A stretch of 64,000 nt of DNA from a virus. How positions within the stretch are numbered: position 1 is the first letter of the stretch; each line of letters opens with the position of its first letter. The translations under genes were made by a program, and so were the position numbers. The notes under the pieces were generated by a model. That model was not told the origin of the DNA. It did no database searches and saw only the letters and a list, made by a program, of their open reading frames with translations. Location of the stretch: IMG/VR virus record IMGVR_UViG_3300031576_000036, positions 1 to 64,000 of that record; one strand, given 5' to 3'. Shown here piece by piece: positions 48,864 through 64,000 of the stretch.

Positions 48864-49367
48864 ATGTCTAACCGCAAGTTTAAGCCAATTCCTGAACTTT
48901 CACCAGAGCAAATCGCTCGATTCAAGTCTAAGATACTGATTACCAAATCGGGTTGCCACGAATGGCAGGGTAATACAACTACGCAAGGCTACGGATCATT
49001 TCTTCTTTATCCAAGGCGTTGCTCAGGCAAGGATAAACGGTACGCACACAGAGTTGCATTCAAATTGCATAACGGGTTTATTGATGATTCATTGCTAGTT
49101 TGTCACACTTGCGACAATCATCCCTGCGTAAATGGTGAACATTTATTGCAAGGAACTCACGAAATCAATAGCGCCGATATGACTAGCAAGAAACGGCAAG
49201 GCTTCGGCGAATCACACAGTCAGGCAAAACTAACTGATAAAGACGTAAAGCAAATCCGTAAGCTTCGCAGGCAAGGGTTAATAATTAAAGACATTGCATT
49301 CATTTTCGGCGTCAGCTACGAAACCACGAGACAAGTTTTAACTGGCGAAACTTGGACACACGTTTAA
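48864..49367 (+). CDS. HNH homing endonuclease
   Basis: 167 residues, oriented against the late genes; AATAGGAGGTCCAA before the ATG. KSGCHEWQGNTTTQGYGSF, YAHRVAFKLHNGF and VCHTCDNHPCVNGEHLLQGT form the HNH_3-type core with zinc-binding cysteines; a helix-turn-helix follows (DVKQIRKLRRQGLIIKDIAF). A free-standing homing element inserted between structural genes. Confidence 0.88.
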   Translation: MSNRKFKPIPELSPEQIARFKSKILITKSGCHEWQGNTTTQGYGSFLLYPRRCSGKDKRYAHRVAFKLHNGFIDDSLLVCHTCDNHPCVNGEHLLQGTHEINSADMTSKKRQGFGESHSQAKLTDKDVKQIRKLRRQGLIIKDIAFIFGVSYETTRQVLTGETWTHV

Positions 49368-50452
49368 AGCCCGCCCATCCACGGGAAACCCCCGGATGAG
49401 TGAGTTTGCCAATAGTCCGCGCCCCCAAGGAAGCCATTTCGATAATACTGCCCCAGGCGCGGAATCCATTCTTGATTGTATATCTCCCGGTCTATGCGCT
49501 GAGCCGCGAGATATTGTTCGTCGTAGCTGTTTCTGGCTTCCTGGATAAGCAGGAGCCAGTTGGTTTTCACCAGCGATGGTATTCTTCCTTTGTTGATCTC
49601 CGCCCACCGATAAGCCTTCATCCGCGCGTAGTCGAACAGCATCTCCGAGTTAATGTAAGGCGGCAACACGCTGTTGACTCTTCCGAGATCGTCCGTGAAC
49701 TCCGCTCCATAAGCTTGGTAGACGGCATAGTAGACCTTCGCGGGAGTGGAGACGTAGTGCGGATAGAGTTCATACAGCGGAGTCCCCGGTTGTAGGTTGC
49801 CGTCGAGAGTCACTCCCGGATACACTGTCGTCGCGGCGGGAGCTTGAACGAGCATAAACGGCATCCCCGTGCTGGTGCGGTTGGGGTCTACCATATCCAA
49901 ATACCGCTTGGGCTTGGAGATGTCGAGCCAGAAGTTGTTGTCCGGGTCTTTGACCGTTAGCCAGCGGAGGAAGTTCGTGGACTCAAAGCCGGTCGTCGGG
50001 TCCAAAGGGGGAAGAATCCAGCGACGGTAGATGTTTACGGAGAGCACGGCGGAAGTGGCTTCCTGAAACTGCCGATCAAGCGTGATTGCTCCTGCCCCCG
50101 AAGGGTCATAGCCGTAGATGTCGTAGATGGGGAGGTTGCCCCCTATGACTCCCCCGGTAGCCGCTGCTCTTAGTGATCGGCGCGTAAGCAAAGGCGGAGA
50201 GGATAGCGCGTCGAGGATCGTCTTCAAGGCCGCGCTAGGGACTGCGGTTGCGCTATATTGCGTCACCGCAATGTTCCCCGTGATCACTGCTGGAACCTGA
50301 ATCATCCCTTCGCGCAACAAGAAACTCCAAGGACGTTTGTTCTGGATGTCCCGCCACGCATCGTTGATGAGTTGCTTGGCGCGGGGTTGCGGAAGGTCCG
50401 CGCCCACTTCGCCGATCAGGTTGTTCCACAATTGATAAAATGTGGTGGACAT
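49364..50452 (-). CDS. Head-tail adaptor-like protein
   Basis: 362 residues. N-terminal helices (FYQLWNNLIGEVGADLPQPR, LINDAWRDIQNKRPWSFLLR) resemble gp4/gp11-type head-completion or tail adaptor proteins that dock beneath the portal. C-terminal helices are charged (RIPSLVKTNWLLLIQEARNS). Lies between capsid and tail genes. Its stop overlaps the convergent HNH gene by 4 bases. Confidence 0.6.
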   Translation of the reverse strand: MSTTFYQLWNNLIGEVGADLPQPRAKQLINDAWRDIQNKRPWSFLLREGMIQVPAVITGNIAVTQYSATAVPSAALKTILDALSSPPLLTRRSLRAAATGGVIGGNLPIYDIYGYDPSGAGAITLDRQFQEATSAVLSVNIYRRWILPPLDPTTGFESTNFLRWLTVKDPDNNFWLDISKPKRYLDMVDPNRTSTGMPFMLVQAPAATTVYPGVTLDGNLQPGTPLYELYPHYVSTPAKVYYAVYQAYGAEFTDDLGRVNSVLPPYINSEMLFDYARMKAYRWAEINKGRIPSLVKTNWLLLIQEARNSYDEQYLAAQRIDREIYNQEWIPRLGQYYRNGFLGGADYWQTHSSGGFPWMGGL

Positions 50453-50458
50453 TCTTCG

Positions 50459-50662
50459 CTAACCTTTAGTCTTGTTCCCCGCCGCGTTCCCAATGCGGAT
50501 CGCCGCGCCTTCGCTTTTCCCTGACTTCAAAGCTGCATTCGCTGCCGCCGCAGCCACTTTGAGTTGCTGGGCGTTGAGCTTCTTATTTTTCTTTTTGAAG
50601 TCTCGCGCTTGCCAAGTCATACCAAAGTCCCTTTCGGTTGTAATGGTGATCTCATCTGTCAC
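50459..50662 (-). CDS. Small basic protein
   Basis: 67 residues with a GTG start overlapping the preceding stop (GTGA); AAGGA lies upstream. Basic, alanine-rich helical (FKKKNKKLNAQQLKVAAAAA), a composition seen in small DNA-associated virion proteins. Function unknown. Confidence 0.65.
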   Translation of the reverse strand: MTDEITITTERDFGMTWQARDFKKKNKKLNAQQLKVAAAAANAALKSGKSEGAAIRIGNAAGNKTKG

Positions 50663-51378
50663 GCTGGGAGTTCCTTACGATGCTGCTCGTTCAACGATTT
50701 AGTAATGTTCAAAATCACAACGACCGCGCCGAACGTCCCTTCCACCGTGAGTTGGTTGTTCAGGGCTTCGGCGTCTCCGTAAGACACCAAGATGAGTTGC
50801 ACGAGATCAAACAACCATTGCGGAGTGTTTGCTTGTAGACGCACGCGATCAAGTGTGATCTTTGCAGCAACCACGTCCTTTGTGAAGGAAGGTTGCTGCT
50901 GGGAGAGGAGGATTGCGCGCAGAGTTGCAAGCGCCGCCCTAACGCCCCCAGTAATAACGATGAATGAGGCTTTGGCTTGATCTGAGAGTTCGATCACTCC
51001 AAGCCTCTCTAGTTGTTGAACATCCACCAACAACGCATCGAGCTTGGCGATGGTGTCGTTGGGATCAGGGAAACCACTTCTCACTCGATCCGCCACCACT
51101 CCCAATGCTAACGCCGCTCTATCATCTAAGTTGTAGATGTTGAGCGCGGTGTTACGAGAGAGTCGTCCGGCTTTCACCAAGATTGCCGTAGCGTCACTAG
51201 CCGTCCTCAGTCCAATCGCCGCTTTGCCGATGTAGATTCCCGCGAGGCGTTTTTTGTACGTCGCGGTGGGTTCGTCAGGTTGCTGCGAGGGCTTTTTGCA
51301 ACCCACAACCAAAGAGAGATTGAGTACGCATAGCAATGACAGAAGTAGTCCGATAGCGCGGAATTTGTTGCATCTCAT
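50659..51378 (-). CDS. Predicted lipoprotein
   Basis: 239 residues from ATG 51378 (TTG 51384 is an alternative). A basic N-terminus and hydrophobic core (AIGLLLSLLCVLNLSLVVGC) end in the lipobox LVVG|C, followed by polar KKPSQQPDEP: a clear type II signal peptide. The mature part is helical (AAIGLRTASDATAILVKAGR). Asp is not at +2, so outer-membrane sorting is expected by the E. coli rule. In a virion operon it may protect the cell from superinfection or form part of the envelope-piercing machinery. Confidence 0.72.
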   Translation of the reverse strand: MRCNKFRAIGLLLSLLCVLNLSLVVGCKKPSQQPDEPTATYKKRLAGIYIGKAAIGLRTASDATAILVKAGRLSRNTALNIYNLDDRAALALGVVADRVRSGFPDPNDTIAKLDALLVDVQQLERLGVIELSDQAKASFIVITGGVRAALATLRAILLSQQQPSFTKDVVAAKITLDRVRLQANTPQWLFDLVQLILVSYGDAEALNNQLTVEGTFGAVVVILNITKSLNEQHRKELPA

Positions 51379-51380
51379 AT

Positions 51381-51740
51381 TCAATAACCCTCAACCACTA
51401 GACGAAACTGCGCGCCTGAGAGATCAGTTGTGTTGGTTACTTCAGTTGCGCCGACCGGGGTAGTTGTCCAGATGAACGTAATGTCCTCGCTACCCTGTTC
51501 TTGGCGATCAGCCTTGACTGCACCCAGAACTCGGTAGGTTGGAACCTGAGTGGCCTTGACGACTGCCAGTCCCGGCTGCATCACAGCGCAGATGCGGTTC
51601 AATCCAAGCTGGGTGGCGGTCACGATGTGTTTAGTCGTGGTGTTGTAGCTAGCGGGTCCGTTGACCTCGACTTCGAGTTGCATCCGATCTCCGACAGGCA
51701 TTCTGCGGACGACGTTGATTGATGGAGTTGGTGCAGGCAT
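51381..51740 (-). CDS. Small virion-type protein
   Basis: 119 residues; CAAAAGGAGAATAACTGAA before the ATG. Beta-rich (RMQLEVEVNGPASYNTTTKH, DITFIWTTTPVGATEV), no cysteine pairs or membrane segment. Lies just after the capsid genes; a head or connector component is plausible. Confidence 0.6.
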   Translation of the reverse strand: MPAPTPSINVVRRMPVGDRMQLEVEVNGPASYNTTTKHIVTATQLGLNRICAVMQPGLAVVKATQVPTYRVLGAVKADRQEQGSEDITFIWTTTPVGATEVTNTTDLSGAQFRLVVEGY

Positions 51741-52006
51741 TTCAGTTATTCTCCTTTTGTTTAATTACAATTGCGCTTATTAAAGGAAAAAGCGGAAGCA
51801 GCTTCCAAGGCTCTGGCTGTTGTTAATTGCGTAGAGCTACCTTGTTTGTCGCGGTTGATGAAGGAAACCACTTCCGCTCCTGGTCTTCACCACCAGTGCC
51901 CTAATGGTGACTAAGAATCTCGCTGGGAAGGGAACGCCCACGACCCCCGTTGTACGCGACGTTCCCTTTCCCAGTTCTCCCCTTTTGCACGGGAAGCTTA
52001 TATGCG
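51741..52006. other. Gene-free stretch behind the capsid genes
   Basis: No gene seen. Holds the palindromes at 51794 and 51863 (one mismatch), a CACCA/TGGTG hairpin (51891-51909) and the large hairpin at 51923-51974, which may partly end capsid transcription. Confidence 0.45.
51923..51974 (-). terminator. Large hairpin, possible attenuator after capsid genes
   Basis: CTGGGAAGGGAACG (51923-51936) pairs with CGTTCCCTTTCCCAG (51960-51974), one bulge. It lies downstream of the capsid and 213-residue genes in the leftward transcript; the following GATTCTT is a weak T tract, so it may be a partial terminator or mRNA end stabiliser. Confidence 0.45.
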
Positions 52007-52648
52007 CTAGACAAGCCTAACCATCGGCTTCATCCACACGCGGGTAATGGTGTTGTCAACCGGGAGTTCCGCAGCCACCAGCCCCGTGCTAACGTAAGCA
52101 GAGAGGTTAGCGATTGTGGGAGTGGAGATGTCCGCCGCAACTTGCTGTCCCAACCCCCTACCGGATTGGTCAACAATCTTGACCAACTGCCCGTCAACCG
52201 GGTTGGTTACGTCAGTAACGAACTGCAACGACCCCAACCCTCCAGTCTGAATCCAGCAGTAGTTGCCGATGGTGACAGTGTTGAGAAAGATTCCCACGAA
52301 CCGTAGCAGTGTGCCAGCAGTTGCGGAATCAGTAGTGACAACGTAGTTGCCCGCTTTGGCGATGGTCGAGACGAAGGCCGCGCAACCTTTAACCGCTCCG
52401 AGCACCGCCACTGAATCTAGCTGCACGTACTGATAGGTTCCACTGTAGAGGGTGCCGATGCTGGAGTCATACAGTCCGCTATCCAAAGCCGCAGGGCCAC
52501 TCGCCCCAGTCGCCAGTTCAACCTCTTGGCCGAGAGCGCCGAGACGGATCGCAGGCGAAGTCGAGGGGATAGACCCAGGAGTGCTTTCGTTAATGGTGTT
52601 CAGCTTCCCAAGATTGGTTGCGAACGATGTTGGAATACGTAATGACAT
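52007..52648 (-). CDS. Capsid-associated protein, possible decoration protein
   Basis: 213 residues directly downstream of the major capsid gene, AGTAAAGGAGAACAAAA before the ATG. Beta-rich and S/T/G-rich (LATGASGPAALDSGLYDSSI, GNYVVTTDSATAGTLLRFVG), resembling capsid-accessory proteins. A hairpin in the 83-base gap (GAGCGGG/CCCGCTC) may adjust the ratio to capsid. Confidence 0.6.
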   Translation of the reverse strand: MSLRIPTSFATNLGKLNTINESTPGSIPSTSPAIRLGALGQEVELATGASGPAALDSGLYDSSIGTLYSGTYQYVQLDSVAVLGAVKGCAAFVSTIAKAGNYVVTTDSATAGTLLRFVGIFLNTVTIGNYCWIQTGGLGSLQFVTDVTNPVDGQLVKIVDQSGRGLGQQVAADISTPTIANLSAYVSTGLVAAELPVDNTITRVWMKPMVRLV

Positions 52649-52731
52649 TTTTGTTCTCCTTTACTGGAAGATGGTAGAGCGGGAAGGATCAAAGCCACCA
52701 GACTCCCCAACCCGCTCCACTATACCAATCT

Positions 52732-53862
52732 TTAAGCTTGATGGCCGTAATACTGTTTTTGATACCGGGGGCCGACACACTGCACATTGAGCGCAGCGTG
52801 AATGCGCCCGACGACGCGAGTGTTGATCTGCGACGGCAGGAAGCCCGTGAAGCCGAAACCGAACAACGGACTGTTGGAGACGCGGACCTTCCACATCCGG
52901 GTGTTGAACCAATTGAAAACCTCGCCCACGTAGCAGTCAGTACCAGCGGTGATGACTTGTCTGGCCCAATTGTTGAGCGTGCTTGCGGAAGCCGCTGCCG
53001 TGGGAGCGTCCACGAAGAGGTCCGTGGTGGAGAAGTTTCCATACTCCGTATTTTGACCGTACCTTGCGCTCAGCCACAGATCGTCTTTGAAGATAATGGC
53101 GTTCTTGAAGCGAATCCCCGTGTGGACTCCGAAGTAAGGATCAGCTTCCTGGGCGATCCGCTGCTTCGGCTCCATCAGTTCCTCAATGTGAGCAACGATG
53201 GCTTTGTTCCCGACTCCGATGTCGGGTTGTTCCATCCCGATGTTCACGTCCATATAGCCCGTGTTGAGTTCCTTGTAGTCCATCTTGCCCATTGAGCCGT
53301 CAGCATTACCGAGGAACCTGGGAGTTGAGTTGTAGGCGTTGCCAACTTCCGATCTGGCCTGTCCACCGTAGCTGGTGTAGATGTTGTTGTCCCAACTGGG
53401 GAAAACGCCGTCGTTGATCGCCTCTGGCCAGCCGTTGAGGTGTTTGGCGCGGGCGGCGGTTTGGCCGTTTTGCGAGAACATCACCGAGATGCGACTGGTG
53501 AGAGAGGACATCGCAGCGGCAAGATCGGTTTCGATGATCGAGAAAATGGCATTCGGTCCAACGTTGAACACTTCCAAATCTTCCAAATACTCGACAATGA
53601 GAGCGACGTAGAACTTCGGGTTGAAGTTCGCGCTGGCGAGAATTTGTCGACGAACCGGCGTGAAGTCCTCTCCTGGGGAGTAAGCGTCATTTTGCAACCC
53701 CCTCCACAAAAAGGTCTGTTGGATAGTAGCGCCGCCGCCGAACGGAACGAATGCTCCTTGGCCGCGCAGATACGCCAGGAAAGGCGCATTGAGAAAGAAG
53801 TTGTCCTGAACAACCAAAGGATACATCTCCTTTAAAGTTGTTATATTTAGTTCGTCTAACAT
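52732..53862 (-). CDS. Major capsid protein
   Basis: 376 residues following the scaffold gene, AAAGGAGACTAACAACA before the ATG. It has the expected pattern of an HK97-fold coat protein encoded after a scaffold: N-terminal helix (NITTLKEMYPLVVQDNFFLN), an E-loop-like region (GGGATIQQTFLWRGLQNDAY), long spine-helix segment (IFSIIETDLAAAMSSLTSRI) and a beta-rich end. Order portal-scaffold-coat supports the call more than sequence. Confidence 0.8.
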   Translation of the reverse strand: MLDELNITTLKEMYPLVVQDNFFLNAPFLAYLRGQGAFVPFGGGATIQQTFLWRGLQNDAYSPGEDFTPVRRQILASANFNPKFYVALIVEYLEDLEVFNVGPNAIFSIIETDLAAAMSSLTSRISVMFSQNGQTAARAKHLNGWPEAINDGVFPSWDNNIYTSYGGQARSEVGNAYNSTPRFLGNADGSMGKMDYKELNTGYMDVNIGMEQPDIGVGNKAIVAHIEELMEPKQRIAQEADPYFGVHTGIRFKNAIIFKDDLWLSARYGQNTEYGNFSTTDLFVDAPTAAASASTLNNWARQVITAGTDCYVGEVFNWFNTRMWKVRVSNSPLFGFGFTGFLPSQINTRVVGRIHAALNVQCVGPRYQKQYYGHQA

Positions 53863-53934
53863 TGTTGTTAGTCTCCTTTAGTTGCTGTTGTGGTTGTGGA
53901 CAACGTTCTTTCCCCTTTGAGCATTGCGCGGTTG

Positions 53935-54942
53935 TTAGTCGCGGTTGACCATTGGGTTGAATCCGTGCCCGTTGTATTTACCTGTGAGAAATGCTTCTGT
54001 TGCTCTCGCCGCCGCGCGTCCGGGTTGGCCGGGTTTGGCGAACAATGGGAGTCCGGCTTTGGGGTCGTTTCCAGCCGCCGCCTGCTGGACAGCTTGGAGG
54101 GTCTGTGCGAGAACTGGTGACTGGGCGAACCCGCCTCCGGTTGGCAACTGTCGCTCGCTTAACCTTTGCGCGACTTGCTGTTGCACTCGACGTTCGACCT
54201 CGGCGTTCATATCCGCAGCCTGTTTGTCAGTACGGAGTTTGTTGAAGTCGAATTTTTCCTGGATGTAGTCTTCAAGAGGTTTACCGGCTGTGAGAGCTTC
54301 GGCCAGGAGAGAGCGACGGTCGGCAGGAAGCGGCTTCCCGGTTAGCAACGTGTATTCCTCTCTCAAATCGGACATCGTGGCATCAATCATCGCGGTTGAG
54401 ATCGCGGCTTCTTGGATGCGTTGGTTCACCACGGCATCGGTTGCGTAGGCGATGGGAGATTGCGAGGGCTGGTTGTTACCATTGTTGCTGTGGTTGTTGT
54501 TGGTAGGCATAGCTCTTTGCTCCGGTTGTGGTGATTCGTTGCTGTTTTCTGCTTCCAGTAAATCCTCAATCCCCATTCCCTTCAATCGCGCTTCTACCGC
54601 TTGGTAGTTTCGCGCCAGTTGCTCTCGCTCTCGCTGAATAGCATCGTATTGCTCTCGACTGACCGTGTTGGACGCCAGGTGCGCTTCCCACTCTTTGAGT
54701 TCGTTTTCATAAGTGAGAAGCTTTTGCGCATCCGCCTCAATTGCGCTCAGGCGTTGCTGTAGCTCTCGTCCGTTCTTACCGTAGTCATCGCGCATCATAA
54801 CAGCGGTCGCTGTGAACTGTTGCGCAGGTTCGCTCTTTTGGTAGAGTGCTCGAAGTTGCTCGTAGTCCTCCTTCGAGAAGTTTGCTTCTTGAGATTGAAG
54901 CCACTTGTCGAAGGTGGACTGTTCGTTAGGTTTCAAAGGCAT
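53935..54942 (-). CDS. Scaffold protein
   Basis: 335 residues from ATG 54942 (ACGGAGAAACCAA upstream). Long charged coiled-coil (YENELKEWEAHLASNTVSRE, QREREQLARNYQAVEARLKG), an N/Q/S-rich linker, a second helical region (AEVERRVQQQVAQRLSERQL) and a C-terminal tail. This is the composition of phage scaffolds that guide coat assembly and leave the head. Immediately precedes the coat gene and has its own promoter at 55182. Confidence 0.78.
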   Translation of the reverse strand: MPLKPNEQSTFDKWLQSQEANFSKEDYEQLRALYQKSEPAQQFTATAVMMRDDYGKNGRELQQRLSAIEADAQKLLTYENELKEWEAHLASNTVSREQYDAIQREREQLARNYQAVEARLKGMGIEDLLEAENSNESPQPEQRAMPTNNNHSNNGNNQPSQSPIAYATDAVVNQRIQEAAISTAMIDATMSDLREEYTLLTGKPLPADRRSLLAEALTAGKPLEDYIQEKFDFNKLRTDKQAADMNAEVERRVQQQVAQRLSERQLPTGGGFAQSPVLAQTLQAVQQAAAGNDPKAGLPLFAKPGQPGRAAARATEAFLTGKYNGHGFNPMVNRD

Positions 54943-55241
54943 TTGGTTTCTCCGTTTTAGTCGTGGTTGGAAAAATTCCGAAGCAACCGCAAGTTGGTAA
55001 GCTAAACAACTAAGCAAATGGTCAGGCCAACGGGCCGGAAAACGGAAATGAAGAACCTGCCTCGCGTCGGGAAGCCGCTTCCTTAGCAGTAAAGGGCCAA
55101 GCTCTGTTGGTTGCTTCGGAGAATGTCAAAAAGCTATACGAAACGCTCTCAATTCATTGGAATTGATTGCAGACAATTTAGATACTACACGGTTGGCGGA
55201 AACGAAGTCAAACTATTTTTCGCTTGACATTCTTTTGTCGC
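54943..55241. other. Structured promoter region upstream of the scaffold gene
   Basis: No gene seen. Besides the leftward promoter it contains AGAATGTCAA (55120-55129) matched by TTGACATTCT (55224-55233), a hairpin CAATTC-ATTG-GAATTG near 55150 and the palindrome at 55070. This suggests an RNA leader or protein-binding control of scaffold and coat expression. Confidence 0.45.
55182..55211 (-). promoter_or_regulatory. Leftward sigma70-type promoter for scaffold and coat
   Basis: Read on the - strand: TTGACT (55211-55206), 18 bases, TAGTAT (55187-55182). It sits in the only long gap between portal and coat and would boost the most abundant virion proteins. Confidence 0.65.
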
Positions 55242-55598
55242 TTATGCTGGAACCGGCGGAGCCATCGGACTCGGCTGCATCCCCTGCGCAACCTTGAGCA
55301 TCGCTCGTGCAATCGCTTGGCCAGCCGCTTGCAATTCCTCGGTGGCCATCGGGAACGACTGTGCGAGCAATTGCAGTTGATCCACCATCGGCTCGAATTG
55401 AGCTTTGATGGCCATCATCGGATCACCACCCATCGCTCCCATACCAGGATCGCTCATCCCCATTCCACCCATTTCCGATTCGGAAGCCATTTCCCCGCCC
55501 TGCTGGGGAGGCATAGGCAATCCCGGTGCGCCCCCGGCGAGCATTTGCGCCGCGTCCGGGGGGAGGGTGGCGGTGTTCATTTGTTGTTGATAAGGCAT
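55242..55598 (-). CDS. Small Gly/Met-rich protein after the portal
   Basis: 118 residues; CAGGAGATTCACCAAT before the ATG. The N-terminal half is M/G/P-rich (GGAPGLPMPPQQGGEMASES), the C-terminal half a single helix (MVDQLQLLAQSFPMATEELQ). Similar in composition to the tail of the portal gene. Probably a head-assembly accessory. Confidence 0.6.
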   Translation of the reverse strand: MPYQQQMNTATLPPDAAQMLAGGAPGLPMPPQQGGEMASESEMGGMGMSDPGMGAMGGDPMMAIKAQFEPMVDQLQLLAQSFPMATEELQAAGQAIARAMLKVAQGMQPSPMAPPVPA

Positions 55599-55615
55599 AT
55601 TGGTGAATCTCCTGT

Positions 55616-56212
55616 TTACTCGATATATTTCCAGTTTATTCTACGACAAATAGAGCTAACTGATGTTTGTTTAAGGCCAAACGTCTTTCCCAATACTGTT
55701 TGGGATTCTCCGGCTTCCCATCGTCGTCGTATTTCTCGCACAATATCTGCTGTTACAAGCGCACGTCCATTGGACTCCCCAAGATGTGCACGAACCTCCC
55801 CAGAAAAGAATTTAGTATGTCGCTTAACCCAATTTCCTCTATCTTTATTGGCTGGATGCGCCTTCCCCCTTTTCAACAACTCAGGATGTCGGCGCGCCCA
55901 ACTTTTATTACCAGTTAGCGCGTCTCTTCCTTTCTTTAGCATATCCTGCATATTATCCCGCACAGTCCCTAAAAATAGATGTTTAGGGTTACAGCACAGC
56001 GGAGTATCGCACCGATGGCAAACAAGCATACCGTCTGGTATCGAACCATTAGTCAACACCCACGCCAATCTATGCGCAGCCCATCTTCGGCCTTGATATT
56101 TGGTTACGCCATAGCCATTGGGACGCAACGCTCCAATCCACAACCAACACGCATTCGCAGAATCCATCTCTACCATTCTCCAGAAATCATCTGGAGTCTT
56201 TTTGTTCGCCAT
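55616..56212 (-). CDS. HNH homing endonuclease
   Basis: 198 residues, same strand as the late genes, between portal and its small partner; GAAAAGGAAATTGAGTT before the ATG. NACWLWIGALRPNGYGVTKY, WAAHRLAWVLTNGSIPDGML, VCHRCDTPLCCNPKHLFLGT carry the HNH_3 core with zinc cysteines; SQTVLGKTFGLKQTSVSSIC is a helix-turn-helix. A homing insertion. Confidence 0.9.
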   Translation of the reverse strand: MANKKTPDDFWRMVEMDSANACWLWIGALRPNGYGVTKYQGRRWAAHRLAWVLTNGSIPDGMLVCHRCDTPLCCNPKHLFLGTVRDNMQDMLKKGRDALTGNKSWARRHPELLKRGKAHPANKDRGNWVKRHTKFFSGEVRAHLGESNGRALVTADIVREIRRRWEAGESQTVLGKTFGLKQTSVSSICRRINWKYIE

Positions 56213-56227
56213 AACTCAATTTCCTTT

Positions 56228-58510
56228 TCAAGACTCAGAAACTACGCTGCGGGGTCCAGTTCCACTTAAATCTGCCTTTTGCTGAATTTCCGGCATAGCC
56301 TGGCCGCTCGGAGGTCTACCCTCTGGCCTGCCGGTTCCATTTTGCGCCCCCGGCGGTCCCCCTTGCTGCCCTTGTTGCATCATCCCAGCCAACCCCTGCT
56401 GGATCATTGCTTCCGGCCCCATTGATTGCATTATTTGCATCTGCGCCTGCGCCATCATCGCCTGCGCTTGAGCTTGAAGCATCACGGTGTACTTCATTTG
56501 CATCTCTTGCCACGCGATGTAGCGTTCGACCATATTCGTGGTTTCGGGAGGCGCTTCGCCGAAATTGGGGAGGTTCCAGGCTTTGGCGAGGTCCCACGGG
56601 GAGATAGGGAAGTTTTTGGGGTCCCGCCACAGTTGTAGTAGGAAGAGTTTATTTTGGATGTCGGTGACGTTGAACGAGGAGCGAGGGGTGATGTTGAAAA
56701 CGAACTGCCGTCCGTGTAGCAATCCCTTGCGCATCAACGGAGCGTCTTCCGGGAGTCCCGGAACTTGGTCTGGAATGAGCGATCCCGGTTTGAAGTCGAA
56801 GTCTTCTTTCGTCACGCCGTCTCGTCCGAGCGTGGAGAGCCGTCGCGCGGTGGTGTCGAACTCCAGTATAAGCCACATAAACATATACCCAAGGTCCGTC
56901 AACGACCTTTCCATATCGCGGGCGAAATCGCTTATCAAAGGCCCTGCGGCCTGAAGCAACCTGTCAATGCTCTCCGCCGAGGGAACTTGCTGAAGCTTAG
57001 CTAGCGCGGTGAAGTCCTGGACTCCGATTTGGTAGTCCATATCGGACTGGAACTTCTCGTAAACCGGAAGCCACTGTTGGGGAAGTTCGTAAGATTGCCA
57101 ATCCAATAGGGGCTTAACAGGGTCATTTATCATTCCGGTCTGAGCAAGTCTCTCGCCCGGAACTCTCGTGTTCAAAACCTCCATCGCTTGCCGCGAGTAT
57201 TCGTTTTCGTTGAACGTCAATGGCGGATCAAGGCGGAGTTCGAGGGAATCTACCGCGCCGCGAGCAAGCGAATCTCCAGCGGCTTGGATGGAGTAGTTTT
57301 CGCCGACGATATTGAACCCCAAGGATTGCCAAGGCCATTTATCAAAAGTGAACTTTACCAAGGGAACCTTGCCGTGCCACCACGGACTCGGACCGTCGTA
57401 GAGAACGCAATGATTCGTCCATACGATCAAACGTCGTAGTGGGTAGAGAAGACAGTCTTCACGGGTGGTTGGGCGAGTGTTGGGGGTTAGTTGTTGACCG
57501 CCGCTCCCTAACATTTCCCCGTTGGGGCCATAGTCGCTTCCGGCTGCGGCGAGAGTGAGCGTGCCGTCCGGGATTTCAGTTCCCAGCGAAGGAATTCCGT
57601 ACTCCCACATAGTCCCCCGTGTGAGCGACTGAGCGTAGCCGCGAGAGATGTCCTCGCTATGCAACAGCGCACCGGAGTCATTCACCGACATATCGGCGAC
57701 ATAGGTGTAGTAAACGTCTACTTCGGGAAAAGGGGAATTAACGTCGTTCATTGACGAGTCAACTGCGCCACCGCCGAGTCCGAGATACTTGAAGATAGGA
57801 GCCGCCCAGGTGGAGATGAGTTTCATTGGGCCGGGAGCCACACTATTCATAACGCGGTCGGGGATGATTTTGCCGAGGGAAGCGGCTTCCGGGAACGCCG
57901 CCGACGCAGCCGCAATAGACATTGTGTCTTGAATGTGAACCGCGTAGGCACGCTGAAGGTCTCCATCCCTGGAGGGTTGATCCTGTAGCACTTGCGTCAT
58001 CCCGAACGCTCTAGTGGTTACGTCCGCTTGTTCGCTCCCGAATGGACTCTTGCCCCAAGTAGGAGAGAGGTAGCCTGCTCCGAGGACCGCCCACTGTAGA
58101 GCCTCTTTGATCCTGCGGTCCACGAAACTCGTCGTCCACCAATTGTCTCGGCGTTTGTTGAGTATTTCAGCTTGTTCCTCCAGGTCCTCGTTATACGTCT
58201 CGTATTCCCAGCGAGGATTCAGGTTCGTAAGGGTCGAGATAATCTCTCTGATTTGGCGTTTGAGGCGGTTGAATTGCACCATCGAGAGCTTGCGGTTGCT
58301 CGCTGCTCGAACTTGATTGGAGATGACCGCTATCGCTGTGTCCAAATCCTTATATGCAACCTGTCCTTTCAAGTGCGTCATCCCCGCTGCGAGCGATCTC
58401 GTGAGCCACGCTATTTTATGGTCGTCCGCAGAGTCATATCGTGGGCACATCCATCCTAACGAGTAGAGTTGAGAAGTTTGGTTGGTGAAGGGAGTTTCGA
58501 CGTAGGCCAT
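56228..58510 (-). CDS. Portal protein
   Basis: 760 residues, the usual size of podovirus portals, placed after the terminase block. N-terminal wing region with helices (LVRAA-type IAVISNQVRAASNRKLSMVQ, FNRLKRQIREIISTLTNLNP) and ALQWAVLGAGYLSPTWGKSP, then a beta/alpha core, a barrel helix rich in M/Q/A (VMLQAQAQAMMAQAQMQIMQ) and a disordered G/P/Q tail. The dodecameric ring would be the DNA gate of the head. Weak-moderate Shine-Dalgarno (AAGGACAAATAAAG). Confidence 0.82.
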   Translation of the reverse strand: MAYVETPFTNQTSQLYSLGWMCPRYDSADDHKIAWLTRSLAAGMTHLKGQVAYKDLDTAIAVISNQVRAASNRKLSMVQFNRLKRQIREIISTLTNLNPRWEYETYNEDLEEQAEILNKRRDNWWTTSFVDRRIKEALQWAVLGAGYLSPTWGKSPFGSEQADVTTRAFGMTQVLQDQPSRDGDLQRAYAVHIQDTMSIAAASAAFPEAASLGKIIPDRVMNSVAPGPMKLISTWAAPIFKYLGLGGGAVDSSMNDVNSPFPEVDVYYTYVADMSVNDSGALLHSEDISRGYAQSLTRGTMWEYGIPSLGTEIPDGTLTLAAAGSDYGPNGEMLGSGGQQLTPNTRPTTREDCLLYPLRRLIVWTNHCVLYDGPSPWWHGKVPLVKFTFDKWPWQSLGFNIVGENYSIQAAGDSLARGAVDSLELRLDPPLTFNENEYSRQAMEVLNTRVPGERLAQTGMINDPVKPLLDWQSYELPQQWLPVYEKFQSDMDYQIGVQDFTALAKLQQVPSAESIDRLLQAAGPLISDFARDMERSLTDLGYMFMWLILEFDTTARRLSTLGRDGVTKEDFDFKPGSLIPDQVPGLPEDAPLMRKGLLHGRQFVFNITPRSSFNVTDIQNKLFLLQLWRDPKNFPISPWDLAKAWNLPNFGEAPPETTNMVERYIAWQEMQMKYTVMLQAQAQAMMAQAQMQIMQSMGPEAMIQQGLAGMMQQGQQGGPPGAQNGTGRPEGRPPSGQAMPEIQQKADLSGTGPRSVVSES

Positions 58511-58646: not shown

Positions 58647-59192
58647 CTAGCTCCTTTTTTGGTCGTAGTTGAGCACGTAGAGATTCACCCCTGGGTCTAC
58701 GCGCTTGTCCCAAGACATTTTGCGAGTGTCGTTGCGCCGCATTGCTTCCCTGGCAAACGCTTTTCCTTTTTCTGACATCTGTTCCATCGCGGATCGCAAC
58801 TCTCGCCGATTCTCGCGCACGGTTTGCTCGAATTGTTGTTGCTCGCGCTCAACGAACTCTTGGCGCTTTCGGCATTCAGCCTGGGTGAGACGCTTTTCGA
58901 GCGAGCGCATTTCGTTGAGCGTGGAGGCTTCTTTGCGCTCGTAGCCTTGGGGCGCGGAGTCGCTATCGCTTCCCGCAGGGATAATATGGCCGCGAGCGTT
59001 CTCGAAGTAAACCGTTCCTGATAGCTGTTGATTCTGGACGCGCGCGTTCATCCATCTTGGCAAAAGCGTGAGTTCGGCTTTGCAGCCTTTACGCTCACAA
59101 GGACAGGAAATGACTTCCGCGAACTCCGCCAACGGTCGCTGAACTTCGTGGATTTGATCGCATTTGTTTCCGCTGTACGTATAAGTTGGCAT
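58647..59192 (-). CDS. FmdB-like zinc-ribbon protein with coiled coil
   Basis: 181 residues; AAGGAAAAGCTAGAT before the ATG. N-terminus MPTYTYSGNKCDQIHEVQRP then CPCERKGC resembles FmdB-type regulatory zinc ribbons (MPTYxYxC). The rest is a long charged coiled coil (QEFVEREQQQFEQTVRENRR). Located between terminase and portal; in packaging or head assembly by context. Confidence 0.65.
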   Translation of the reverse strand: MPTYTYSGNKCDQIHEVQRPLAEFAEVISCPCERKGCKAELTLLPRWMNARVQNQQLSGTVYFENARGHIIPAGSDSDSAPQGYERKEASTLNEMRSLEKRLTQAECRKRQEFVEREQQQFEQTVRENRRELRSAMEQMSEKGKAFAREAMRRNDTRKMSWDKRVDPGVNLYVLNYDQKRS

Positions 59193-59276: not shown

Positions 59277-61469
59277 TTAAATGTAAGTAGGACGCATCAC
59301 GCCCGCTCGTTCCTCTTCCAGTTTCGTAAAGTCCTTCGGATCGAACCGAGTCAGCCCTGGATAACCCTCTTTGAACGTAGCAAACTTAACCAACTTCTCT
59401 TGTTCCTCTTGCATCGAGCGCCATTGTGGGGTTTCGCCGCGATAAATGTCAAGCTCGTGCAGCGTTACGAGTCCTATTCCGAGCGAGAACAGATCGTCGT
59501 CGTGAGCGGACTTGTCGTGTTCGAGTCGGATGTTGCGGGAGTTGTCGGATTCGTGAACGACGAAATCCCGCATTTCGTCTATCGTCCACGGAGAGTTGAG
59601 TTCGACGAACATTCCCTTCAAGAGCTTAAAGAGCCAGGAAGTCAGCAAGGGTCGAGTGCCGTGGCCACTCCCGGTTCCTGTCGTCTTCCAGCCTAGGTTG
59701 CCTATTTTGTTCCCGCTGAGATCGCGTTTGTCCGCCGTACGACGCATATAAAACCGCGTCCAACCTCGTTTGCGAACTTCGAGTAGGCAAGCGCCGCCAT
59801 CGCTGGCGGTTTCAGGAGAGAACATCGGATAGGCCATTCCATTTTTGTAGGAGTTCCAAGTTGAGTAATAGTGGAGGAGCATTAGCGCAAAAGGCCACAT
59901 CTCCAGCCCCCCAAGTTGGTCGGAGGCGAACGAAGCGACTTGGGAAGCGGCTTCCCCAAAGTCCCCTTTGCGGATCACTTGGAGCGAGGAGCGATCCCTT
60001 CCGATTCCTTCTGAAGCGTCTAGGCTAACCGCGTATTCTTTGTCTTCCCTCGGATATTCCCACACCCAAAGCGTGTTGAGATGAGAGTGAACACTGGAGT
60101 AGCCGGGGAATTTAATCGGGGTCCAAAGCCAATCCACTTCATCCCTACCTCCCATCCATTTGACGTGAATACTCGGAGCGTCTTCTAGCTTCTCCTGCGC
60201 TTCCGCTCCGAGCCACGACGGGACTTCTGTGCCGGAGAGCTTAAACACGCCTACGGGCTGCTTCAAGCGACTCTCATACTTTTGAATGAGTTGAATGGAG
60301 AACACAGATTTCGACCGCGACTGAAAACAACTCAAATCGTCGCTGGCGTATTCCGCCAAAAAGTCTCCCAACTTATCCTTCCGCTCCGCAAAGTCGTAGG
60401 AATACTCATACCACCACTGCGTTGCCAATGGCATCTCCCAATCCCTACCCATCGCTTGCGCTAAGAAAGGATCAGACCGCACATACTCCTTCGCTTTCCG
60501 CGCGTGCTCTACAACGTAGTCCTTGGGCTTCCAGTCTTGAGGAATAGGAATCGCCGCCAGCCAACCATCAGTCGGATACAGGTTGTCAGAGATATAGTAG
60601 GGAAGGAAAAGCGGGCGCATTACCGATAATCCTTGTGGCCAGAGTTCTTTGTTCTCTTCCCATTTTGTATGCCAGTAATCGTGTCGGCCTCCAGCGGTAG
60701 ATTCCATCACACCAAAATGCAATGAGGTTGGATGCCACGCGCCGAACAGCGATGCGTCTACGATCAGTTCTGGTTTGTCGAAATTTGGAATCTCACTTAG
60801 GTGGAATAATTTTACCGTGTCGCCTCTCGAAATCCCCGTTCCCTGTGTGCCGTGCTGAATTGAGATGTAGGAGTTGCGGGAGTCACAGCGCAAGAAAATT
60901 TCGCCTGATTGATACTCTTTTACGTCCGGTGGAATGAGCCACCAAGGTTGCTTAGGCAAAGAGCGCGAGATCATCTCTGAGAGTAGCCACGATTTATCAG
61001 GATCACTACTGCCTATAACAGCGGCGCTATCAGGCACGAATAGCATTCGGTGCATTATCTTGCTAGTAGTGTCGGTCGTGCCTCCTCCCTGTCTGGCTTT
61101 AAGCAACTGCACCACAACAGGCTTTCCTTGCTCCTCCAATTCCGCTTGGGCGAGCGTCAACACCTGTTGGTATTTGTTTTGCTTGAAAGGCACGAGCGCC
61201 AGCGTCTCAGCGTGCCGCACGTAGTGGTAATTCTCGGCCCAATGCAAGTAATCCAGTCCGCACAACAACCTTTCGTTCGAGATGAACTGTTGTTCGTCTT
61301 TCGTGAGCGGACGTTGAAGTTCCACGACTCGTCGTTTGTCGTCGCGGATAGCTAAGGACTCAAGGTGGGAGATGCAAGCCTGAATGTAGGCAGGGGTGTA
61401 ATAGATCAGCGATTTACCATCGCTTTCTAACTGGGCTATTCGGTTGGCAACAACTTTTCTCGAATACAT
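59277..61469 (-). CDS. terL: Terminase large subunit
   Basis: 730 residues, longer than the usual 450-650. ATPase: Walker A-like KARQGGGTT at about 124-132, Walker B VKLFHLSEIPNF with the catalytic Glu, then the coupling region. Nuclease domain begins at EYAVSLDASEGIGRDRSSLQ (first metal-binding Asp) and ends with HDDDLFSLGIGL (third acidic site). It powers DNA packaging through the portal. GGAAGAAG precedes the ATG, which overlaps the small subunit gene by 34 bases. Confidence 0.9.
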   Translation of the reverse strand: MYSRKVVANRIAQLESDGKSLIYYTPAYIQACISHLESLAIRDDKRRVVELQRPLTKDEQQFISNERLLCGLDYLHWAENYHYVRHAETLALVPFKQNKYQQVLTLAQAELEEQGKPVVVQLLKARQGGGTTDTTSKIMHRMLFVPDSAAVIGSSDPDKSWLLSEMISRSLPKQPWWLIPPDVKEYQSGEIFLRCDSRNSYISIQHGTQGTGISRGDTVKLFHLSEIPNFDKPELIVDASLFGAWHPTSLHFGVMESTAGGRHDYWHTKWEENKELWPQGLSVMRPLFLPYYISDNLYPTDGWLAAIPIPQDWKPKDYVVEHARKAKEYVRSDPFLAQAMGRDWEMPLATQWWYEYSYDFAERKDKLGDFLAEYASDDLSCFQSRSKSVFSIQLIQKYESRLKQPVGVFKLSGTEVPSWLGAEAQEKLEDAPSIHVKWMGGRDEVDWLWTPIKFPGYSSVHSHLNTLWVWEYPREDKEYAVSLDASEGIGRDRSSLQVIRKGDFGEAASQVASFASDQLGGLEMWPFALMLLHYYSTWNSYKNGMAYPMFSPETASDGGACLLEVRKRGWTRFYMRRTADKRDLSGNKIGNLGWKTTGTGSGHGTRPLLTSWLFKLLKGMFVELNSPWTIDEMRDFVVHESDNSRNIRLEHDKSAHDDDLFSLGIGLVTLHELDIYRGETPQWRSMQEEQEKLVKFATFKEGYPGLTRFDPKDFTKLEEERAGVMRPTYI

Positions 61470-62194
61470 TCTTCTTCCACGATCTCGGCTTCTATCACGG
61501 GGGCTTCCGGCAACGCTTTTACCTCTCTCCCATTCAACGCCTTTGTGAGCACCTTATCCGTCTCTTCCCACTGTGGCAACCCCATCGCAAGGTTATTGGT
61601 GACGTTCTGTTGGTTGACGTTCACAACCGTCCCAGGGCCTTCTTGGATCAACCCTCCTGCCTTCATCAGCAGTTGTCGGTCGTTGAAGCCGTGGCGTTCG
61701 CCTTCGACGGCTTGGCGAATGGAAGCGTCCACGACGGAGTTCATCTGCAATTGCAACCGGATTTTCGCGGCTTCGAGTCCATACCAATAGATAGCTTTAC
61801 AAAGGTCCCCTACGAAGTCCTCGTAGGGAAGTTTGGCCAGGTCGCAAGCCTGTTCCAACGAGGGTTCTCGGAATTCCTCGGTAGGAAATAGTTGTTGCTG
61901 ATGCAAATCCTCCCACGCAAGGGCGAACTTGCGCAGCGAGTCGTATCTGTGCGCGCCCATCCGCGCGAGCAATATAATCGCTTCGATCCCGGAGCGCCCT
62001 TGGACGATAAGGCCGTCGAAGAGAGGAAAGAGGTGTTCGCTGAGGGGGACGTGGGTGATGGGCAATGGGGGTTGGTCAGACTTTGGGATGTTTTTAACAA
62101 TAGTCGCTGCGGAAGCGCCTTCCCCATTCGTAACCGGAATATGAATTTCGTATTCCCCAAGTTGCAATTTAGTCCCGAATTTCTTTCTCGGCAT
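61436..62194 (-). CDS. Putative terminase small subunit
   Basis: 252 residues directly upstream of, and overlapping, the large subunit. Helical N-terminal part (EAIILLARMGAHRYDSLRKF), a central helical region and a VNVNQQNVTNN segment near the end, a feature I recall from terminase small subunit-like proteins. It would recognise DNA for packaging. Call rests on position and general shape. Confidence 0.65.
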   Translation of the reverse strand: MPRKKFGTKLQLGEYEIHIPVTNGEGASAATIVKNIPKSDQPPLPITHVPLSEHLFPLFDGLIVQGRSGIEAIILLARMGAHRYDSLRKFALAWEDLHQQQLFPTEEFREPSLEQACDLAKLPYEDFVGDLCKAIYWYGLEAAKIRLQLQMNSVVDASIRQAVEGERHGFNDRQLLMKAGGLIQEGPGTVVNVNQQNVTNNLAMGLPQWEETDKVLTKALNGREVKALPEAPVIEAEIVEEECIREKLLPTE

Positions 62195-62197
62195 CCC

Positions 62198-62779
62198 TTA
62201 CAACCTCCCCCACTGCTTCGCCATTGCGTTCGCAATCCCCTGATAGGTACGACTGCGATTTTTCCATCTCTCCTGCGACGGCGGCTCCAAGTGAACCCTT
62301 GCGACTCTCCCGGACACTATTTTGCTCGGTTTCAACTCAGGAAGCCCTTTCAACCACAAACAAGTCGCCTTTGTTTCTCCGTGCCCGAATTGCCACGGCT
62401 GGATTATTTGGCTATATGTTTGTTTAATCAACGTGCGCGCGTGGCTGTGCATTATGGGATTTTCAATGGCAATCAGCGGAATGGGCGCAGCCAGCAACTC
62501 CACGAAAAACTGCGCTGCCTTGTGCATTGCGCGCCATCGAGCTTTCCCATTTACCTTATCGTAAAGATGCCGTACCCCAGAGTTGCACAGATAAGTACAA
62601 GGCGGATGCGCAGTCAGCAGGTCCCATTTTCCCGGTCGAATAATATGAAACACGTCTCCCATTATGTGATTACCCGGAATCTCTGAGGGCAGTAGATCGC
62701 AACTCCAGGCATCGTGTCCTAGGCGCGCGAAGGCTTCTCGAACAATCCCGCTAAACTCGCAAGCTACCAATACTCTCAT
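62198..62779 (-). CDS. C5-cytosine methyltransferase-like protein
   Basis: 193 residues from ATG 62779 (AAGGTAAAAGA upstream). Motif I-like VACEFSGIVREAFARLGHDA with SCDLLPSE, motif IV HPPCTYLCNSG containing the catalytic-type PPC, and motif VI-like AIENPIMHS. This is the compact phage relative of DNA cytosine methylases; the target recognition domain seems absent, so sequence specificity or even activity is uncertain. It could modify phage DNA against restriction or a base precursor. Confidence 0.7.
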   Translation of the reverse strand: MRVLVACEFSGIVREAFARLGHDAWSCDLLPSEIPGNHIMGDVFHIIRPGKWDLLTAHPPCTYLCNSGVRHLYDKVNGKARWRAMHKAAQFFVELLAAPIPLIAIENPIMHSHARTLIKQTYSQIIQPWQFGHGETKATCLWLKGLPELKPSKIVSGRVARVHLEPPSQERWKNRSRTYQGIANAMAKQWGRL

Positions 62780-62883
62780 TCTTTTACCTTCACCGTTGAT
62801 TGCTGCCTTCCCTCCCGCTTCGCCCACACTCTTCGTCCTCGCCTAGTCGCCGCCGTGAGTCCCTGGGGTCGGCGCTTATACAT
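62776..62883 (-). CDS. Possible small basic peptide (35 aa)
   Basis: ATG 62883 to TGA 62776, ending in an ATGA overlap with the methyltransferase gene. Rich in R and K (YKRRPQGLTAATRRGRRVWA). The G-run next to the ATG is a poor ribosome binding site. The overlap style supports it; could be spurious. Confidence 0.35.
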   Translation of the reverse strand: MYKRRPQGLTAATRRGRRVWAKREGRQQSTVKVKE

Positions 62884-62893
62884 CCCTTTACGT

Positions 62894-63241
62894 CTAGTCG
62901 TTACCGTGGAGATTTTTGAGTTGTTTGCCATCGTCGTATCGTAGCCCCTCCATCATTTTCTCGACTTCCTCTGGTCCATAAATTTCCAAGAGTTCCAGCA
63001 ATGTGGCTTCAGTCTCATCCCCTGCCGCGCGCTTCCAGTCTTCGTCCTGACGCTTCTCAGGGTTGAAGTGGATGACGGCATCTGTGCCCAATGGCGCTCT
63101 CCGGTCGAACTTCTCAAGTTTGCTGCCTTCTTCCTGCGCGCGTCTAAGCAAATCAAGCTCTCCAACCAAATGCCGGTTGATTATGGTGTTGATGCCAATC
63201 CGAATCGCTCGTAGCTCCAAGAGAATGTCTTTGAGAATCAT
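62894..63241 (-). CDS. Helical protein of unknown function
   Basis: 115 residues. Entirely helical and charged (ILLELRAIRIGINTIINRHL, ATLLELLEIYGPEEVEKMME). No motif. Located between the putative anti-CBASS gene and the methyltransferase, in what looks like a defence-related or regulatory front of the late arm. Confidence 0.62.
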   Translation of the reverse strand: MILKDILLELRAIRIGINTIINRHLVGELDLLRRAQEEGSKLEKFDRRAPLGTDAVIHFNPEKRQDEDWKRAAGDETEATLLELLEIYGPEEVEKMMEGLRYDDGKQLKNLHGND

Positions 63242-63251
63242 AGCAGGTACG

Positions 63252-63464
63252 CTACCCCTTGTATAACTTCGCCCTCACCGCCGCATCCTTAGCTTCAAGC
63301 AACTTCCTGAGCGCAACTGTTCGCTCCGGGTTCCTTGGCAGTTCCGCAACGAGCTTCTTCGCCAACTCTCCAAATGGCTTGCTTACTTCCTGCAAGTCCG
63401 AGGGAAGATGATCGTAGGCGAAAAATTGTTGAATAGGTTCATATTTGATTTCTTCGTCAGCCAT
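63252..63464 (-). CDS. Putative Acb2-like cyclic-nucleotide sponge
   Basis: 70 residues, starting in a TAATG overlap. Pattern FFAYDHLPSDLQEVSKPFGE, LAKKLVAELP, then PERTVALRKLLEAKDAAVRA follows the layout of small all-helical Acb2 anti-CBASS proteins (F-x-Y-x-H, basic-x-x-A-L, and a final A-rich helix) that sequester cyclic oligonucleotides. Length agrees. Assignment from remembered family pattern, not a search. Confidence 0.45.
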   Translation of the reverse strand: MADEEIKYEPIQQFFAYDHLPSDLQEVSKPFGELAKKLVAELPRNPERTVALRKLLEAKDAAVRAKLYKG

Positions 63465-64000
63465 TACTTCTGTTCTCCTTTGTTTGCAAACTGTTTCTGA
63501 ACCGCCCCCTTCTGCGCTCCCGTAGCCACTTTCGGCTTATCGTGCAATAACGCTTCTCCCTTCGACCCTGTGTGCGCGATTCTCGTCGGCGTCGGCACTG
63601 GAAGATCGTTCATTATTCGTATTGCGTCCGGGGGGATTTCGTCGCAATTGAACTTTTCACCAAATCCGCAGTCCCGCTCTAAGGCTGCGTTGGTGATTAG
63701 AAAGGCTATCTCCCCGGAAATTCCTCTGCCTTCTTCTTGGGGAAACTGCGCAATACTGAAAGCAAACGTCACATTGCAAATATCCATTCCTCCACTCTCG
63801 CCTCCCCCACGTAACGAAAGCCTCCACGTCACGTCCGCCTTCGGAAATCCCACTACGTCGCTGCATAAGCTGGCGTGTTTGGAGAGTTCGTTGTCTATGG
63901 TTTTGGCGATGTGGACTTGGGCGCTTTCGGCGATCTCGGCCTCCGCTAACGCGCGCTTTACTTTAATCCCTAGCAGTTCTCGGAGTTCGTTCCCGTTGAG
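63464..64000 (-). CDS. Partial gene, N-terminus beyond the window
   Basis: The frame is open from the stop at 63464 to the window end; the GTG at 63853 is internal, because convincing coding sequence (LRELLGIKVKRALAEAEIAE, VHIAKTIDNELSKHASLC) continues upstream. At least 178 residues. The visible part is mixed, with an NVTFAFSIAQFPQEEG segment and a basic end. Function unknown. It shows that the late arm and the phage genome extend past 64000. Confidence 0.7.
   Translation of the reverse strand, partial: LNGNELRELLGIKVKRALAEAEIAESAQVHIAKTIDNELSKHASLCSDVVGFPKADVTWRLSLRGGGESGGMDICNVTFAFSIAQFPQEEGRGISGEIAFLITNAALERDCGFGEKFNCDEIPPDAIRIMNDLPVPTPTRIAHTGSKGEALLHDKPKVATGAQKGAVQKQFANKGEQK

Follow-up and report, generated by a model that had tools for sequence, protein, structure and literature searches.

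A small helical phage protein family remotely related to the Acb2/Tad1 hairpin: a candidate sponge for nucleotide immune signals

Introduction

Does a 70-residue phage protein that recalls the Acb2 sponges belong with them, and could it act as they do? The question was raised by a 64,000-nucleotide stretch of viral DNA (hereafter the window; positions 1 to 64,000 of IMG/VR record IMGVR_UViG_3300031576_000036, itself 67,147 bases long), in which an initial annotation had read the small gene at 63252-63464 as a putative Acb2-like anti-CBASS gene. Acb2 sponges, as described in passages of PMC12043709 and PMC10419184, are built from assembled protomers, the N- and C-terminal elements of different protomers forming pockets in which cyclic nucleotides are held uncut. 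Here we analyse the gene, its predicted product, its family and its relation to the Acb2/Tad1 hairpin.

Results

A genuine gene at the head of the late region

The open reading frame at 63252-63464 (minus strand, as for the flanking genes, signals and protein segments located below) starts with ATG and encodes 70 amino acids. A frame of this length could arise by chance alone, and its reality was judged from family matches. In a PHROG search the protein matched phrog_1761 (1.9e-29), phrog_5120 (8.8e-20) and phrog_1454 (9.1e-5), for none of which PHROGs gives a function, and tblastn found relatives in 322 of 50,697 phage records at E values up to 0.01. A putative ribosome-binding site, AGGAG, was read directly from the sequence at 63475-63479, 10 nt upstream of the ATG, and this start codon shares bases with the stop codon of the gene before it (TAATG), so that the hairpin gene reads as a member of a tight operon. 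The PHROG matches, the ribosome-binding site, the overlap and the relatives confirm that this is a real gene for a 70-residue protein, as first proposed.

The gene directly upstream (63464-64000, 206 aa) continues beyond the window end and has no strong family match, and the 115-aa ORF directly downstream (62894-63241) matched no family. Next comes a DNA methyltransferase-like gene (62198-62827; phrog_757, 2.3e-61). The initial annotation had placed the hairpin gene next to a methyltransferase-like gene: that gene is real, but the 115-aa ORF separates the two. A 252-aa ORF without PHROG match (61436-62194) lies just ahead of the terminase large subunit and would, by position only, be the terminase small subunit. 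The terminase large subunit itself (59277-61469; phrog_5989, 6.3e-11) and the portal protein (56228-58510; phrog_156, 8e-8) are 28% and 29% identical, respectively, to their counterparts in Tunturiibacter phage Tunturi_1. The proposed place at the head of the late arm fits, as terminase large subunit, portal and major head genes follow on the same strand, weakly recognised. In the late region (49364-56096 and 58647-59192), the ORFs at 53935-55017, 49364-50452 and 58647-59192 had no PHROG match; together with the weak terminase and portal matches, they place this phage far from described groups. In our collection the phages closest by terminase are Tunturi_1 and Tunturi_2 (28% identity), which makes an acidobacterial soil bacterium a possible host.

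Predicted fold and structure searches

The AlphaFold (AF2) model of the window protein has a mean pLDDT of 91 and comprises helices at residues 10-15, 22-41 (long helix 1, 63342-63401) and 46-67 (long helix 2, 63264-63329), the last carrying the near-invariant pattern E-x4-L-R-K-L-L-E-A-K-D-x-x-V-R. The protein is thus predicted to be mainly helical, in agreement with the initial description. Passages of PMC12043709 and PMC10419184 give the Acb2 protomer as a short element followed by two long helices, and the model appears to agree with it in helix count and order, which are all that this comparison covers. The same predicted arrangement would be expected of an ordinary Acb2, an explanation taken up with the residue pattern below.

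Two-helix hairpins are common, and we therefore weighed the possibility that the protein is an unrelated hairpin whose similarity to Acb2 is convergent or compositional. A Foldseek search of the PDB with the window model is consistent with this explanation: all matches were weak (best E 1.2), and no Acb2 chain was among the best 50 of 62. VIA-align likewise placed no Acb2 chain among the matches listed (50 entries; 185 chains aligned). A missing row in either search does not exclude an Acb2 fold, but the absence has some weight because a Xandras-type model, run as positive control, did find such chains, Acb2 homolog 43 coming first in PDB Foldseek (E 0.035) and T4 Vs.4 and Acb2 ranking high in a second search. 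Viral models told against an unrelated hairpin, since they pointed repeatedly to one named family: in BFVD, 12 among the best 50 of 193 Foldseek matches were named Acb2/Tad1 hairpin, the first at rank 7 (E 0.038, probability 1.00), and several top matches were recognisable members of the window family. The structure search against Acb2 that had been suggested as a check thus brought up viral models bearing the Acb2/Tad1 name and no PDB Acb2 chain among the matches listed.

Remote sequence homology to PF24729

The window protein had no match to the Pfam family PF24729 (Acb2/Tad1 hairpin, curated cut-off 27 bits) at E values up to 10. Among four divergent relatives, two scored below threshold (L436, 16.4 bits; L140, 18.9 bits) and two had no match. 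Pfam, NCBIfam and phmmer searches of the PDB with the window protein returned weak unrelated matches only, and a profile of the window family found no Acb2 chain among PDB sequences.

Profile-profile comparison gave a different picture. We used as reference the group around Mycobacterium phage Xandras gp101, to which PMC11953737 gives the name cyclic nucleotide sequestering protein and which passes PF24729 (8.1e-17); a profile of its relatives finds solved chains of Acb2 homolog 43 (8.7e-12) and of Tad1 (1.8e-4). In hhalign the window family aligned with this Xandras-type PF24729 group at 91-93% probability (E 3e-7 to 1e-6, score 34-36), whereas direct comparisons with the T4 and Falsigemmobacter groups were not significant. 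With remote members added the score was 35.2, and the highest value among 600 shuffled profiles (columns or four-column blocks) was 21.25; this null does not model other real helical hairpins. In a further null of 300 circular shifts, some reversed, 41 scored as high; we discounted it because many shifts keep the matching block 24-58 intact. A control with real neighbour families comprised three families, one of them the window family itself, too few for a null. The best window-family members scored 21-22 bits with the Xandras-type HMM and the best T4 Acb2 relatives 12.3 bits, so that in sequence T4 Acb2 is at least as far from the Xandras branch as the window family. The model phrog_1454 also reached all of these proteins, matching the window protein at 9e-5, T4 Acb2 at 7e-4, a Falsigemmobacter PF24729 protein at 3e-4 and Xandras gp101 at 8e-30.

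Conservation pointed the same way. Column conservation of the two families correlated with a Spearman rho of 0.80 at the hhalign register (window position = Xandras position + 5) and at most 0.72 for shifts of 1-6 either way, the second-best value (0.72) coming at a shift of +4, one helical turn. This agreement at one register and the failure of any of the 600 shuffled profiles to reach the observed score, set beside the viral-model matches, make an unrelated hairpin very improbable.

A shared core and an exchanged helix-2 face

The PF24729 family (Xandras gp101, Falsigemmobacter L147, Tunturi_1 gp101 and Acb2 homolog 43) consists, like the window protein, of small phage proteins in which a short turn connects two long helices, with an L-P-x-x-x-E-x-x-x-A-x-x-K-L-x-E-A core and an aromatic/His motif ahead of helix 1. 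In the window protein this motif is FFAYDHLP (residues 14-21, 63402-63425), in which F15, H19 and L20 are near-invariant by weighted conservation; canonical members carry the counterpart F-x-Y-H-x-P. The most divergent window-family members keep helix 2 and have lost the H-L-P motif, which counts against the sponge reading. T4 Acb2 (Vs.4) and the Pseudomonas phage Acb2 (PDB 7uq2, 8h2x) share the short N-terminal element and the two long helices, but T4 Acb2, with 88 aa, has a long interhelix insertion and the window protein is shorter.

These likenesses would allow the protein to be an ordinary Acb2, with the same pockets as the T4 and Pseudomonas proteins and binding cGAMP-like cyclic dinucleotides and cyclic trinucleotides; the aromatic/His motif and the shared E-x4-[LIK]-x-K-L-x-E-A core agree with it. 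The remainder of helix 2 does not. Canonical members read T-K-L-E-E-A-M-F-W-A-N where the window family reads, almost invariantly, R-K-L-L-E-A-K-D-A-A-V-R. At the aligned register E47, A51, K54, L55, E57, A58, A62 and A65 agree, while the Xandras invariants R41, T48, M54, F55, W56 and N58 correspond to window P46, R53, K59, D60, A61 and V63. Seen along the helix, the R-E turn of PF24729 becomes P-E, its T becomes R and its M-F-W-A-N becomes K-D-A-A-V, so that the Xandras stretch T48, M54-F55-W56-A57-N58 stands against window R53, K59-D60-A61-A62-V63; K59, D60 and R64 are extra charged invariants of the window family. The Xandras signature R-E-x-[AS]-x-A-x-T-K-L-E-E-A-M-F-W-A-N was accordingly absent, only E, A, K, L, E, A and A being shared. 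Nor are the ligand-related T4 residues Y8, T68 and F82 (literature including parts of PMC12657230) conserved as such: window R53 aligns with T68, and a figure legend of PMC12657230 states that T68M lowers binding in T4 Acb2. Since the helix-2 residues are replaced and yet invariant, the same face appears to be strictly constrained with another chemistry. With the protein also below the PF24729 threshold, we consider an ordinary Acb2 improbable, and we did not file the window protein as Acb2 because both the threshold and the canonical signature had been tested with negative result.

A canonical counterpart in Tunturi_1 and rare co-occurrence

Tunturi_1 gp101 (L439:5235-5450) is annotated as a hypothetical protein but passes PF24729 (1.7e-11), so that this Acidobacteriota phage probably encodes a sponge. 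Counted along the coding strand, gp101 precedes the terminase by six genes and the window hairpin gene precedes its own by four. No homology was detectable between the two phages in the genes lying between hairpin and terminase, and we therefore regard this as a comparable place and not as proven synteny.

Records with both families were rare. A PF24729 gene was present in 1 of 39 window-family records (the Xandras control left out, some near-duplicates included), and a clear window-family gene in 1 of 40 canonical PF24729 records; a second, weak match (E 0.003) fell on the canonical gene itself. In Acinetobacter phage ZZ1, which is T4-like, the window family is present and PF24729 gave no match. 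This low co-occurrence, counted without a base rate, is at most compatible with one family replacing the other.

Taken together, the profile-profile alignment, the predicted helices, the viral-model matches and the placement of the Tunturi_1 gene support remote homology of the window family to the Acb2/Tad1 hairpin superfamily. The label Acb2-like was a fair lead that the same four lines of evidence partly support, PF24729, the PDB chains and the helix-2 residues speaking against it.

A widespread family in changing neighbourhoods

The window protein belongs by strong match to PHROGs 1761 and 5120, the former being longer (148 positions) with the hairpin in its C-terminal part. Phages with relatives infect Vibrio, Erwinia, Acinetobacter, Brevibacterium, Gordonia, Microcystis and others, and nearly all relatives among the tblastn matches listed are annotated as hypothetical proteins. 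In IMG/VR a relative is encoded in at least 577 of 599 candidate stretches, and among genome contigs in 64 of 420. The family is unannotated in the collections examined, and a text search of one library of open papers found no mention of the sequence motif or of the PHROG names.

Neighbourhoods differ widely. Annotated family genes adjoin lysis, packaging or unrelated genes and also occur in early regions, and 91 adjoining same-strand ORFs (hand-picked from 130 that had been randomly drawn from 338 longer neighbour ORFs) covered 98 PHROG families, with at most 3 ORFs per family. Such variability is what a mobile accessory gene would show. Most neighbours are ordinary phage genes, some of them head or packaging genes, which tells against a sponge. 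Among the 91, one ORF is Tad2-like, one matches Lar and a few match methyltransferases or glycosyltransferases, and the Tad2 cut-off was exceeded in 2 of 45 records; judged without a control set, an association with other counter-defence is suggestive at most. The Tad2-like genes over cut-off lie in the window-family records L370 (G083:C1:25071-25298) and L008 (G074:C1:3128-3355).

Several members are of unusual build. In Erwinia phage pEa_SNUABM_23 (L428:2755-3207) the hairpin is fused behind a P-loop-like segment (GAVGSGKSAV, motif identified by eye) that may be a truncated NTPase, and in Ochrobactrum phage vB_OspP_OH (L424:765-1133) it follows a Cys-rich, zinc-ribbon-like segment in a protein annotated as anti-TRAP domain-containing. 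In the Brevibacterium phages AGM9, AGM10, 4C and 10C, at about 24527-24754, the family gene overlaps features named repeated sequence in phage genome; the match is longer there than in AGM2, and the family gene may vary by internal repeats.

The main rival to a sponge is a hairpin of the same fold and ancestry put to another use, for example in regulation, in inhibiting a host protein, or as an accessory factor in packaging or structure. It would account for hairpins that form the C-terminal part of longer proteins, as behind the Cys-rich and P-loop-like segments, for the head or packaging genes among some neighbours, and for a helix-2 conservation so strict as to be unusual in an arms-race protein. 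The varying genome position, in early, lysis and packaging regions, is however unlike that of most structural genes, and we rate this alternative as rather unlikely.

Discussion

We propose to place the window protein in the Acb2/Tad1 hairpin superfamily, as a divergent branch, and to regard it as a probable sponge that takes up a nucleotide immune signal, a reading we favour with some reserve. We infer its assembly, binding, sequestration and counter-defence role as follows. Several copies would assemble, with pockets formed by helix 2 together with the F-x-Y-x-H-L-P segment near the N terminus; these pockets would hold a small nucleotide alarm molecule from host defence, a cyclic oligonucleotide or cyclic ADP-ribose, and with the alarm molecule captured the defence effector would stay off.

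The canonical helix-2 face is exchanged for the equally conserved R53, K54, E57, K59, D60 and R64, and so the window protein probably departs from T4 or Pseudomonas Acb2 in its ligand or its mode of binding. Acb2 homolog 43 has been solved with 3'cADPR, a TIR-type signal (PDB 9ptq, entry title), so that Acb2 relatives are not confined to CBASS signals. By analogy, the ligand of the window protein may likewise be other than the CBASS signal first proposed. Given this wider range of ligands, sequestration with a changed specificity is the most likely function.

A bolder version, which we hold only tentatively, is that the hairpin sponges include a major branch, so far unrecognised, formed by this family, and that its R-E-D-R stripe captures a signal outside the known Acb2/Tad1 spectrum. 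If so, there would be a nucleotide-signalling defence in wide use that has yet to be paired with its phage counter-measure. If the protein is not a sponge, the Acb2/Tad1 hairpin would have been recruited for other work. If it is one, a very common phage hypothetical protein would turn out to serve counter-defence in phages of many hosts, unnoticed by current annotation, and its near-invariant charged helix would offer a direct handle on the bound signal.
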